64,000 nucleotides of DNA from Armatimonadota bacterium. GTDB taxonomy: Bacteria > Armatimonadota > Fimbriimonadia > Fimbriimonadales > Fimbriimonadaceae. The translations under genes were made by a program, and so were the position numbers. The DNA lies in contig JAFDWX010000001.1 of assembly GCA_018268255.1 (NCBI GenBank), positions 558,001-622,000 on the forward strand, written 5' to 3'. The notes beneath the pieces were generated by a model. The model was not told the DNA's origin. It worked only from the letters and a program-made list of their open reading frames with translations, and ran no database searches. Below are positions 3,594 through 44,288 of the stretch, piece by piece (the stretch's first letter is position 1; the number at the start of each line of letters is the position of its first letter).

Positions 3594-4255
3594 AATCGAA
3601 GATAGGGTTGCATTTTTTGATAGGTCTTGGGGCCGATGCCGCTGACGTCCATCAACTGATCCAGTGACTTGAAACCCCCAAGCTGGCTTCGCAACGCAAT
3701 GATCTTTTGGGCAGTGGAGGGTCCGACTCCGGGCAACTTCTGCAAGTCTTCGAGAGATGCCTGGTTAATCGAGATCGATCCAAGTGCTGGAAGTTCCTTT
3801 CGACCGGATTTCGCAACCGAGCCGGACTTCTTGCCGGAAGATCTGACCGACCCTGAGTTCTTCCCGTAGAAGCTGGACTTCTGGGATGCCATCGAAGGAG
3901 CCATGACGATGGGTTCATCCGACATATCTCCCAAACTCGGGATGTTCACCTTGCAGCCATCGACCAGTGGGTCGGCGAGATTGATTCGGTTGTTATCTGC
4001 CTCGCGAGAGAGACCGCCTGCTTTCTTGATCAGGTCGTTCATCCTTGCCCCAGCGGGAAGCTCATATAGTCCGGGATTTTGAACCTGGCCGCGGATTTCC
4101 ACCATGATCACGCCGCTCGCGCTCGAACGTTCGAACGTTAGATCGCCGCTCTGGGATTTGAACGACCGAACTGCGTATCCACCTGCCCCGAGCCCTAGAA
4201 CGAGCGCGCCCGCAATGATGGCCTGTGAACGAGGCGACTGGTTGCTTAACCGCAT
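3590..4255 (-). CDS. comEA: ComEA-like protein: membrane anchor, SLBB domain, helix-hairpin-helix DNA-binding domain
   Basis: In order: one N-terminal membrane segment (AIIAGALVLGLGAGGYAV), an SLBB-type domain (VEIRGQVQNPGLYELPAGAR, IKKAGGL, VNIPSLGD), a Ser/Lys-rich linker, and two HhH motifs (SINQASLEDLQKLPGVGPSTAQKII, then DVSGIGPKTYQK). This is the architecture of ComEA, which binds incoming double-stranded DNA at the outer face of the membrane during transformation. No ComEC or comF is nearby, so competence is an inference. The ~35-residue Lys/Ser/Gly linker between SLBB and HhH may itself contact DNA. It is the first gene of a coupled pair with the methyltransferase. Confidence 0.85.
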   Translation of the reverse strand: MRLSNQSPRSQAIIAGALVLGLGAGGYAVRSFKSQSGDLTFERSSASGVIMVEIRGQVQNPGLYELPAGARMNDLIKKAGGLSREADNNRINLADPLVDGCKVNIPSLGDMSDEPIVMAPSMASQKSSFYGKNSGSVRSSGKKSGSVAKSGRKELPALGSISINQASLEDLQKLPGVGPSTAQKIIALRSQLGGFKSLDQLMDVSGIGPKTYQKMQPYLRL

Positions 4256-4351
4256 GAATTGAGTTATACATCACAACCAAACAACATGAGTTAAGAGTGG
4301 TTCGTAACGCTTTCGGGCTGGAATCGTTGTACAGTTGAGGTGGGTAAATCA

Positions 4352-5305
4352 ATGAGATATTTCGCTTGGATGCTGGCACTCGTGATATCGGCTGCGGCAG
4401 TGGCCATTCCGACCGTCCCCGGAGATCCGCTCCACACCGTCAAGTGGTCCAACTACAGAAGCGGAACGACGAGTCGGTATGAAAAGGAATCGTGCCAGGT
4501 CCTCGTCAACGAAGGAGATTTTCAGCGATACTGGGTGCAGGCGATGGGGCAGCCTTCCACTTCAGCTCCCAAGGATGTTGATTGGAACACCTACCAACTG
4601 ATCGCAATCCACCTAGGCAAACGCCAGACGGGCGGCTACAGTGTTTTTGTCCGCTCGGTCACGTTGGATGTTCGCGATCTCGCCATCACGTACGTTGCTC
4701 AAAGTCCGGGCAAGCATGATCGCGTGTCCCAAAATGTAACGAGCCCGTGGGTCATCATCAAGGTGGAGCGCAATGGTGGTGTCGCGCGATTTGTCCGCAC
4801 TGAGCAAGTCGGCAGCGATTCCGGTAGCCACGGTGGGCATGACGGTTATCCTGGTCATGCACCGGGCTGCCTATGTTGCTGCTGCCAGCATCGCCATGGA
4901 AGCGTCGGAAGAAACCACTGCCCGCACTATCCGTTCGAGATTATCAAGTACGGATACATGACCGGTTCCGGTTTTCCCTACAACTACTGGATCAACAACT
5001 CTCGGGATTTCGCCAACTACTGGATCAACGTTCTGGGCAACGACAGCAAGGACTTGCCGGATGAAGGCATCGACTGGCGGACAAACAGCATCATCGCCAT
5101 TCAATTGGACGAAAGCACGGCGTCGCAAAAAATCAGCATTGAGGAACTGATCTTGGACAATGGCAAACCTACCATTCGCTACTCGGTGGATGATCAGCCG
5201 GGGAGCGGTACCAAGTTGAGGACCTTTATCATCGTCAGAATTCCGCGAGTCAGCCAGATGCCGGTGATTCAGAAGGTAGCCAAGGGTTCAGGCGAGCGCT
5301 ATTGA
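4352..5305 (+). CDS. Secreted protein with two PrcB-like domains joined by a Cys/His cluster
   Basis: The start ATG 4352 has GAGGTG about 10 bases upstream and opens a signal peptide (MRYFAWMLALVISAAAVA). Two similar ~120-residue domains follow: each has a tyrosine-rich opening, the pattern DF-x-YW and then DW-x-T-x-x-I-I-A-I-L/H (first copy at about residues 45-100, second at 205-260), and an ending beta strand I-I-V/K-x-R. This resembles the PrcB C-terminal family. Between them (about residues 155-190) lies an extraordinary His/Gly/Cys stretch including GCLCCCCQHRH, a plausible metal-binding hinge. Function unknown; the envelope location is inferred from the signal peptide. Confidence 0.7.
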   Translation: MRYFAWMLALVISAAAVAIPTVPGDPLHTVKWSNYRSGTTSRYEKESCQVLVNEGDFQRYWVQAMGQPSTSAPKDVDWNTYQLIAIHLGKRQTGGYSVFVRSVTLDVRDLAITYVAQSPGKHDRVSQNVTSPWVIIKVERNGGVARFVRTEQVGSDSGSHGGHDGYPGHAPGCLCCCCQHRHGSVGRNHCPHYPFEIIKYGYMTGSGFPYNYWINNSRDFANYWINVLGNDSKDLPDEGIDWRTNSIIAIQLDESTASQKISIEELILDNGKPTIRYSVDDQPGSGTKLRTFIIVRIPRVSQMPVIQKVAKGSGERY

Positions 5306-30640: not shown

Positions 30641-31711
30641 TCAATTCTTGTGCCGGCGCTGGACAATTCCAGCCAACCCAAGTCCGACTGCGACCAGACT
30701 CATCGGTTCAGGGACAGCTTGCAGGCGGACGACCTGCTTACTGGCACCGCCGACTCCGCCGATCGTAGCGTAAAGGTCGCCATTGACTGGGTCGATGATG
30801 GGGAGCGTCAAGTATTTGCCAGACGGAAGGTTGGTGACAAGGTCGTCCAGGAACGACACGCCGTCGACAGGATCTACCACAAGACCTCGGGGGCCGATTG
30901 AAGTGTCACTGTTCGTGGCGACGATCAATCCGTTGTTTCCCAAACCCCAGATTGCCGTGTTGTCATACTTTGGCCAATCCTGATATATGGGCGCGTGGCC
31001 CTCTTGATACCACCAGAATCCTCCGATCACAAACGATGCTATTTGCCCGCTTTCGTTGATCGCCCGTGGGCTCCCCGGGCCGAGAATCGTAAAGGTGTTG
31101 GTCTTGATGTGAAGAATCGCAGTATCAGCGCTACCGTTCCCATCTTGTCCGCCTTCGAACGAGAATGAGGCGGCGATGTCGCCCGAGTTGTTGATGTCAT
31201 AGGCCTTGGTAAAGGTCGCGATTCGAAAGTCCAGCCGATCTCCCGTCACTGTGTTGTAGATGAACGAGTTCGTGTGATCGTACGTCGAGTTCGGGTGCGT
31301 GTAACCCACGACTATCCCCGAGTCGTTGATGCCGGTGGGGATGATCCAAGAGACGGGTTCCTTCGATGGGATCGTGTGGAGTGTATCGCCCTGAATGTAG
31401 CCTCCTTTGTAATCTGGATTAGCTTCGTTCGGGATGTAAGTGAGTGCCATTCCGCTACTGGAAATTCCTGAACCAAAGATATTCCTAACATTGAATTTGG
31501 CAGTCAAATCCGTGATCACGCCGTTCTTGCGGTAATAGCTCTTCTGAGCAGTGCCTGCCCCACCACCAAAGTTCAATTCACCGTTGTAGGCGGCGTACGC
31601 GCGCTCCACTGGTGCGCCACCTACGCTGATGTACTCCTTAATTTCGTACTTAGGTGTCGCCCAAACGGCCGAGCCAGCAGCAAACAAAGCCGCCAAACAA
31701 AGTCCTCTCAC
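30641..31711 (-). CDS. PEP-CTERM secreted protein with HAF-type repeats (copy A of inverted pair)
   Basis: From GTG 31711 the ~356-residue product has a signal peptide (VRGLCLAALFAAGSAVWA), repeats of the type G-I-N-x-S-G-x-I/V-V/A (GINDSGIVVGYTHPN, DINNSGDIAAS, AINESGQIAS, LGNNGLIV) as in the extracellular HAF family, and a PEP-CTERM tail (VPEPMSLVAVGLGLAGIVQRRHKN). Such tails are cut by an exosortase; none is in this window. GTG is chosen because the same start context (CACTGGAAGTGTG) is shared with copy B at 43218; TTG 31729 is the in-frame extension. Protein identity with copy B is high but patchy. Function unknown, probably cell-surface or extracellular matrix. Confidence 0.82.
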   Translation of the reverse strand: MRGLCLAALFAAGSAVWATPKYEIKEYISVGGAPVERAYAAYNGELNFGGGAGTAQKSYYRKNGVITDLTAKFNVRNIFGSGISSSGMALTYIPNEANPDYKGGYIQGDTLHTIPSKEPVSWIIPTGINDSGIVVGYTHPNSTYDHTNSFIYNTVTGDRLDFRIATFTKAYDINNSGDIAASFSFEGGQDGNGSADTAILHIKTNTFTILGPGSPRAINESGQIASFVIGGFWWYQEGHAPIYQDWPKYDNTAIWGLGNNGLIVATNSDTSIGPRGLVVDPVDGVSFLDDLVTNLPSGKYLTLPIIDPVNGDLYATIGGVGGASKQVVRLQAVPEPMSLVAVGLGLAGIVQRRHKN

Positions 31712-31801
31712 ACTTCCAGTGTACGACAAGTGTCAGCAAAGCACTGTGCGAATTTCCCCCTCACAAGCGAAGCACGTTGAGGGGGATTAAGGGGGAGACT
31801 C
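30669..31801 (-). repeat. Left arm of a 1.13-kb inverted repeat (PEP-CTERM gene plus upstream element)
   Basis: This segment is homologous to 43129-44260 on the opposite strand. Homology starts in the C-rich element upstream of the gene and stops abruptly within the codons for the Arg-rich tail of the PEP-CTERM signal. The longest identical tract I traced is 86 bp (31227-31312 against 43617-43702). Confidence 0.9.
31755..31799. repeat. C-rich intergenic hairpin element, copy 1
   Basis: On this strand TCCCCCTCA (31755-31763) pairs with TGAGGGGGA (31778-31786) around an AGCGAAGC-containing loop, followed by TTAAGGGGGAGA. The same element stands at 43131-43174, also upstream of the paralogue. 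It resembles dispersed REP-like elements built on GGGGGATTAAGGGGG. Confidence 0.65.
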
Positions 31802-43128: not shown

Positions 43129-44260
43129 AGTCTCCCCCTTAATCCCCCTCAACGCGCTTCGCTTGTGAGGGGGAAAACCGCTCTCTGCTTTGCTGACACC
43201 TGTCGTACACTGGAAGTGTGAGAGGACTTTGTTTGGCGGCTTTGTTTGCTGCTGGCTCGGCCGTTTGGGCGACACCTAAGTACGAAATTAGGGAGTACAT
43301 CAGTGTCGCTGGGGCACCGGTGGAGCGAGCCTACGCAGCCTACAACGGTGAATTGAACTTTGGTGGTGGGGTCTATCCGAATTTTAAAAGCTTCTACCGG
43401 AAAAATGGTGTCGTTACAGACTTGACCGTAAAGTACAACCTCGGATATCTGGCCGGTAGTAGTATTTCCAGTAGTGGAATGGCTTGTATGTTCAGGGATA
43501 ACTACGAATTGGCGGATTTCAAAGGAGGCTACATTCAGGGCGATACGCTCCATACGATCCCATCCAAGGAACCCGTTTCTTGGATCATCCCCAAAGGTAT
43601 CAACGACTCGGGGATCGTCGTGGGTTACACGCACCCGAACTCGACGTACGATCACACGAACTCGTTCATCTACAACACAGTGACGGGAGATCGGCTGGAC
43701 TTCAGAATCGCGACCTTTACTAAGGCTTATGGCATCAACAACTCGGGCGACATCGCCGCCTCATTCTCATTCGAAGGCGGGCAAGATGGGAACGGCGGCG
43801 CAGACACGGCGATTCTTCACACCAAGACCAACACCTTTACGATCCTCGGCCCGGGGAGCCCACGGGCGATCAATGAAAACGGGCAAATCGCTTCATACAG
43901 TCACTCAGGTTTCTGGTGGTATCAAGAAGGCCACGCACCTATATATCAGGATTGGCCAAAGTATGACAACCCAGTGATCCTTGGTTTAGGTAACAACGGC
44001 CTGGTGGTCGGCGCTAACTATGACCCCACAATTGGCGGGCGAGGCCTAGTTGCCGATCCTGTCGACGGAGTAGCGTTCTTGGATGATCTTGTCACCAACC
44101 TTCCGTCAGGCAAATACTTGACGCTCCCCATCATCGACCGAGTCAATGGCGATCTTTACGCTACGATCGGCGGAGTTGGCGGTGCCACTAAGCAGGTCGT
44201 CCGGCTACAAGCTGTCCCTGAACCGATGAGTCTGGTCGCAGTCGGACTTGGGTTGGCTGG
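43129..44260 (+). repeat. Right arm of the 1.13-kb inverted repeat
   Basis: This is the partner of 30669-31801, in inverted orientation, 11.3 kb apart. Similarity ends sharply at 44260, inside the last codons of the gene, where the two C-termini (VRRRVRR against VQRRHKN) no longer align at the DNA level. Homologous recombination between the arms would invert the seven genes between them. Confidence 0.9.
43131..43174. repeat. C-rich intergenic hairpin element, copy 2
   Basis: TCCCCCTCA (43143-43151) pairs with TGAGGGGGA (43166-43174), preceded by TCTCCCCCTTAA. It is nearly identical, inverted, to the element at 31755-31799, and each copy stands about 45-75 bp upstream of a PEP-CTERM paralogue. 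It may act as terminator for the propeller gene, as a REP-like element, or as the border of the duplication. Confidence 0.65.
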
Positions 44261-44288
44261 CATCGTTCGCCGACGCGTCCGGCGTTAA
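43218..44288 (+). CDS. PEP-CTERM secreted protein with HAF-type repeats (copy B of inverted pair)
   Basis: This 356-residue paralogue of the gene at 30641 has the same signal peptide (VRGLCLAALFAAGSAVWA), HAF-like repeats (GINDSGIVVGYTHPN, GINNSGDIAAS, AINENGQIAS, LGNNGLVVGANYD) and PEP-CTERM end (VPEPMSLVAVGLGLAGIVRRRVRR), recognised in other bacteria by an exosortase. Differences are concentrated in patches: about residues 35-75 (YPNFKSFYRKNG to MFRDNYELADF), near 220 (SYSHSG), and near 250-270. Start codon GTG. The two genes face outward from the shared 11-kb interval. Confidence 0.82.
   Translation: MRGLCLAALFAAGSAVWATPKYEIREYISVAGAPVERAYAAYNGELNFGGGVYPNFKSFYRKNGVVTDLTVKYNLGYLAGSSISSSGMACMFRDNYELADFKGGYIQGDTLHTIPSKEPVSWIIPKGINDSGIVVGYTHPNSTYDHTNSFIYNTVTGDRLDFRIATFTKAYGINNSGDIAASFSFEGGQDGNGGADTAILHTKTNTFTILGPGSPRAINENGQIASYSHSGFWWYQEGHAPIYQDWPKYDNPVILGLGNNGLVVGANYDPTIGGRGLVADPVDGVAFLDDLVTNLPSGKYLTLPIIDRVNGDLYATIGGVGGATKQVVRLQAVPEPMSLVAVGLGLAGIVRRRVRR

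Follow-up and report, generated by a model that had tools for sequence, protein, structure and literature searches.

Evidence for short-tract recombination among five PEP-CTERM paralogues with a predicted beta-propeller fold

The paralogues and their predicted products

The window, a stretch of 64,000 nucleotides from the genome of an Armatimonadota bacterium (a draft assembly of 9 contigs, 98.5% complete), holds two related genes for PEP-CTERM proteins, here called copy B and copy A:

43218..44288, forward strand: copy B (L001), an ORF with a GTG start for a putatively exported PEP-CTERM protein of 356 aa
30641..31711, reverse strand: copy A (L002), a paralogue of 356 aa, 85% identical, inverted, 11.5 kb from copy B

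A genome-wide search found the remaining full-length paralogues on C4 (L003), C6 (L004) and C5 (L005), giving a family of five in which all frames are open; protein identity to L001 is 100, 85, 77, 52 and 49% for L001 to L005, respectively. For copy A, the GTG at 31711 is the best-fitting start and not the TTG at 31729, since the C4 paralogue has a stop between these two positions. Close relatives were not found in the named genome collections or in viral contigs, and other genomes of the taxonomic family and order gave only distant matches, either at ~24-30% identity across much of the protein or limited to its C-terminal part. Synteny around copies A and B is scattered when compared with two congeneric genomes. 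L005 (in L086, around 4095-5189) lies head to head with a likely ribosomal protein operon from rplC, its genes being named by eye from the protein sequences.

A structure model of copy B (pLDDT 82, pTM 0.80) leads us to predict a seven-bladed beta-propeller as the fold of the family: in our reading of the model the strands form seven blades, the last of which would be completed by an N-terminal strand (residues 21-27). Solved propellers match the model at Z 18-25, virginiamycin B lyase among them at Z 22 and 2.6 Å over 238 residues, and identity to solved propellers is about 10%. With their repeated N-x-x-G turns and predicted seven-bladed fold, the proteins resemble the HAF-repeat proteins (TIGR02913) and virginiamycin B lyase, although at 11.3 and 15.5 bits they score below the TIGR02913 cut-off of 22.65 bits.

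The PEP-CTERM system described by Haft et al. 2006 links a C-terminal tail and an exosortase (EpsH) to surface sorting (PMC1569441). The two copies share with it the C-terminal PEP motif, hydrophobic helix and basic cluster as well as the hydrophobic N-terminal segment (in the model, residues 2-17 form a hydrophobic helix of low pLDDT), and the genome has both an exosortase (PF09721, 167 bits, E 5e-49, G000:C8) and many PEP-CTERM matches, 68 in all. The tails score 20.2 (copy B) and 20.5 bits in TIGR02595, above the cut-off of 16; in Pfam PF07589 they fall just below it, at 19.9 and 18.9 against 20.7. Given this TIGR02595 match and the exosortase, we consider the products to be probably exported and sorted to the surface, and a role as a cell-surface or matrix binding protein is likely.

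Mosaic divergence along the gene

A sequence-only reading of the window had drawn attention to an 86-bp tract that is identical in copies A and B, and to the uneven divergence of these genes around it:

43617..43702, forward strand: 86-bp identical tract in copy B
31227..31312, reverse strand: partner of this tract in copy A

The two stretches agree, as reverse complements, at 86 of 86 bases, with a mismatch at both flanks. The unevenness is also confirmed: codon windows with a dS of about 0.04-0.2 adjoin windows above 1.5 or saturated, and over sliding 30-codon windows dS ranges from 0.04 (alignment codons 134-163) up to saturation (codons 54-93). The patches of strong difference, which had been placed at about residues 35-75, near 220 and at 250-270, do exist, but their limits differ: the first is longer, running over residues 52-101 with silent differences already from residue 37, while the second, at residues about 227-290, takes in both of the others. 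The chance of an 86-bp run is P = 0.0002 over the whole gene, P = 0.024 inside the conserved core and P = 0.44 in a five-gene silent-site test. The tract is modestly unusual within the core, and other conversion signals are stronger; equal or stronger tracts link copy A to the C4 paralogue (116 bp, with 89 bp adjoining) and the C6 to the C5 paralogue (68 and 41 bp).

Aligning all five genes brings out a far stronger mosaic than a single pair could and resolves the body of the gene into segments with different histories:

43371..43520, forward strand: patch V1, residues 52-101, the length of one blade; copy B of ancient divergence, copy A and L003 almost identical
31409..31558, reverse strand: patch V1 of copy A; same codon as L003, on another contig, at 96% of 49 shared residues
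43521..43898, forward strand: core (residues 102-227); L001-L003 at roughly equal distances from one another (dS about 0.1-0.5), under strong purifying selection
43899..44207, forward strand: patch V2 (residues 228-330); copies A and B of one lineage (dS about 0.1-1.1), L003 saturated

The nearest relative thus changes along the gene by segments of roughly 50-400 bp, silent sites included. When L001-L003 are compared, 69 of the 71 variable sites at residues 37-101 set L001 apart, and over residues 52-101 this 43.2-kb copy is saturated at silent sites; in the core (residues 109-227) the variable sites are mixed 13/16/15 among the three genes; and over residues 228-356, 104 of 171 set L003 apart, with 28 of the remainder differing in all three. 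The grouping of A with B, with the C4 copy saturated, extends over residues 228-337. Variable sites cluster in runs at P = 0.0002, also with third positions only, and on third positions only separate branch lengths per segment are preferred (delta lnL 54, 12 df, BIC better by 39). Codon usage at shared residues follows the same pattern: in V1 the codon is the same at a fraction of 0.96 for L002/L003, 0.90 for L004/L005 and 0.44 for L001/L002 (expected about 0.35-0.38), in the core at 0.82-0.84 for all three of L001-L003, and in V2 at 0.72 for L001/L002 and 0.43 for L001/L003 (expected 0.37).

Segment trees favour L001 with L002 in V2 (AU 0.98; alternatives about 0.05 or less) and L002 with L003 in V1; in V1, putting L001 in either of the alternative positions is not rejected by the AU test (p about 0.2), and the argument there is carried by branch lengths and shared codons. 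A strict five-gene silent-run test gave no significant run; in the three-gene test the runs are significant (global P 0.001 for L001/L002 at codons 294-316, and 0.04 for L002/L003). L004 and L005 share a tract at codons 73-109. V1 and V2 each exist as three anciently diverged versions, differently combined among the copies.

The ends of the genes add a further layer:

43130..43217, forward strand: upstream block of copy B, 88 nt, with a 45-nt dispersed hairpin repeat and promoter-like sequence
31712..31799, reverse strand: equivalent upstream block of copy A
43218..43290, forward strand: putative signal-peptide segment, 73 bp identical to copy A; first 42 bp identical in L004 too; not in L005
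44208..44260, forward strand: PEP-CTERM tail tract, 53 bp identical to copy A; largely common to L003 and L004, not L005

The 88-nt block shows 6-11 mismatches among L001-L004, with unrelated flanks beyond it, and L005 is without it. At shared residues, L004 uses the same codons as L001-L003 at 0.88-0.94 in the signal peptide and 0.79-0.92 in the tail, while with L005, its sister in the body, the figure for the tail is 0.25 (expected 0.29). In the C6 copy (L004) the body thus stems from one lineage, and the upstream block, signal peptide and PEP-CTERM tail around it from another. Haft et al. 2006 (PMC1569441) assigned the tail clades to paralogous expansion; here, tail DNA and body of L004 differ in lineage, which points to segment exchange.

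The dispersed ~45-nt hairpin repeat (TCTCCCCCTWARTCCCCCTCAACGCGCTTCGCTTGTGAGGGGGA; 43130-43174 and 31755-31799, also L037-L048) looks like a REP-type element. It has about 24 genomic copies, and in four cases a gene of this family follows immediately downstream; the hairpin of the upstream block has a folding energy of -19.6 kcal/mol (z -3.9). The shared block begins sharply at the left edge of this repeat, and in all copies the 3' similarity ends a few codons short of the stop. Transposition was considered as the means of spreading and rejected: about 20 of the hairpin repeats stand elsewhere without a gene of this family, and the right edge lies in the last codons with no common end sequence. 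We therefore retain old duplication and conversion over transposition. A -10-like hexamer, TACACT, ends 6 nt before the GTG in L001-L004 (43206-43220) and is TACAAT in L005, which suggests leaderless transcription.

Recombination, import and selection

Since shared silent sites change partner along the gene and one set of branch lengths is rejected, we regard recombination in the five-gene family, whether by gene conversion or by import from an unsampled donor, as well supported. Such switching of partners at silent sites is what conversion between paralogues is expected to leave, and the earlier suggestion of gene conversion between the copies is borne out by the five-gene alignment. We are confident that the family is best described as five exosortase-sorted beta-propeller paralogues that go back to old duplications and have repeatedly undergone short-tract homologous recombination, presumably through RecA-type gene conversion between paralogues. 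Most widely shared are the two ends (the upstream block with the signal peptide, and the PEP-CTERM tail) and the central core; conversion would keep promoter and sorting signals uniform and swap propeller segments, and the bacterium may in this way retain several related surface propellers that differ in their faces, with purifying selection acting on each. As one genome is compared, the direction and date of each event are not readable.

Some versions may have been imported from other strains, since the assembly contains no donor for copy B's V1 or for L003's V2; searches of this genome, of 85 genomes of the taxonomic family and of the named collections found no donor for these two divergent versions. 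We find it distinctly less probable that the segments were generally acquired from other strains or species, by transformation, instead of passing between paralogues within a genome. For other tracts, the genome itself has a matching sister copy (V1 of L002/L003, codons 73-109 of L004/L005, the ends of L004 with L001-L003), so that paralogue exchange accounts for them directly, and no relative outside the genome is near enough for a donor.

The variable patches had been interpreted as diversifying surface loops around a converted core, with amino-acid change favoured in them as in antigen families or self/non-self matrix proteins, and a dN/dS above 1 had been expected there. We consider such selection improbable, even though the patches are rich in amino-acid differences and one 15-codon window (alignment codons 94-108) has a pN of 0.44 against a pS of 0.25 for L001 vs both L002 and L003. 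That window spans a mosaic junction at which divergent codons are joined to converted ones, and its ratio is thus probably no measure of selection. No sliding 30-codon window of four close pairs reaches a dN/dS of 1; the maximum, about 0.7, occurs where V1 ends on the right and, in the L001/L003 pair, in the tail window. Synonymous sites within the patches are saturated, dN/dS being about 0.1-0.4 where measurable, and copies with a common patch differ by few, silent changes (in L002/L003, residues 52-101, silent only). In the model, the patches take up entire sections of the fold and include strands of the core in addition to loops. Because dS is saturated and no 30-codon window has a dN/dS above 1, the patches appear to be old divergence that conversion has either spared or introduced. 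Purifying selection within each patch version is the simplest reading; weak or old positive selection inside the patches could lie beneath the saturated dS.

Cassette-type antigenic variation, as in vlsE of Borrelia and msp2 of Anaplasma, proceeds by segmental conversion between paralogues with conserved ends. The present family differs from those systems in being made up of five complete genes, four of which each carry the shared upstream block. Silent partial cassettes were not found in the genome (98.5% complete assembly), where the 5' block occurs in four full genes only; there is likewise no single expression site, and the family consists of five complete open copies plus distant relatives. 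The comparison of the two PEP-CTERM paralogues with antigen or self/non-self systems is thus not supported, and nothing ties the proteins of the family to self/non-self recognition. This is ordinary gene conversion, with no sign of antigen-style selection for change. A likeness, as a mosaic of segment versions among surface proteins, is to bacterial families that gene conversion or allelic exchange has diversified (for example Porphyromonas gingivalis RagAB, Tpr), where such mosaics have been attributed to homologous recombination (PMC5266723), although the mosaic described here lies among the paralogues of one genome and is without sign of immune selection.

Chimeric joins among similar copies during assembly are very unlikely to have created the pattern: the draft nature of the 9 contigs and the presence of one or more N gaps in a different PEP-CTERM gene give some reason for caution, but the five loci and the window are free of N, patches common to two copies still carry a few differences, the divergent versions are not reciprocal swaps, and the identical tracts (42-116 bp) fit within ordinary read length. 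Least credible is a single tree without recombination, in which site-specific constraint gives slow and fast stretches, since this would account for the varying protein-level conservation along the fold, to which the five-gene run test is sensitive, but leaves unexplained that different gene pairs are silent-site identical in different stretches, and linked-branch models are rejected on third positions.

Within the framework of repeated recombination between paralogues, we speculate, with little confidence, that blade-sized modules of an exosortase-anchored propeller are exchanged as a blade-shuffling system. In the model the apparent breakpoints (at about residues 51/52, 101/102 and 228/229) would all fall in the loop connecting strands B and C, of blades 1, 2 and 5, and they sit a few residues past the conserved N-x-x-G turn, a regularity noticed after the fact. 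The plain alternative is that each breakpoint comes after the best-conserved stretch of the repeat, which offers strand exchange the most homology. If true, blade shuffling would recombine the binding faces of matrix proteins while conversion holds the promoter and sorting signals uniform.

Other PEP-CTERM genes

In 60 other PEP-CTERM genes of the genome, taken as a control, tail codons are at about chance (0.307 vs 0.286), which speaks against codon bias as the source of the tail sharing within the family. The same control led us to reject a genome-wide homogenisation of tails in this genome.

PEP-CTERM proteins have been described as one of the fastest-evolving sets in their genomes, with very fast protein turnover, and where similar tails form clades within a lineage, family expansion has been the explanation given (PMC1569441). 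Segment exchange can yield the same tail-clade pattern, and whole-gene or tail trees can mislead. Among the papers searched, none mentions both PEP-CTERM and gene conversion; segmental conversion is a known kind of process, seen here in a family for which no report of it was found.

A congeneric genome has ten propeller-like PEP-CTERM genes (L049, L056, L059, L061, L063, L065, L067-L070) with nearly identical 3' ends of 60-90 bp. Their bodies are mostly about 30% identical at the protein level, with body codons near chance in seven, and the codon sharing of their tails is 0.72 vs 0.27 expected by chance. Across 29 PEP-CTERM genes of the sister species, a set that includes L068 read in the wrong frame, the tail sharing is mostly gone (0.40 vs 0.31).

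Two gene pairs, L150/L176 and L165/L166, have no step in their divergence, though L150/L176 is somewhat uneven. A second stepped PEP-CTERM pair of the same genome is L174/L190 (G000:C6:233963-234988 and G000:C4:234884-235909), which is near codon-chance up to about residue 125 and then rises in a sharp step to a codon identity of about 0.8. L174, in which there is an N gap, has L004 as a neighbour at about 5 kb; what had looked like a gap in L174/L190 is a run of N.
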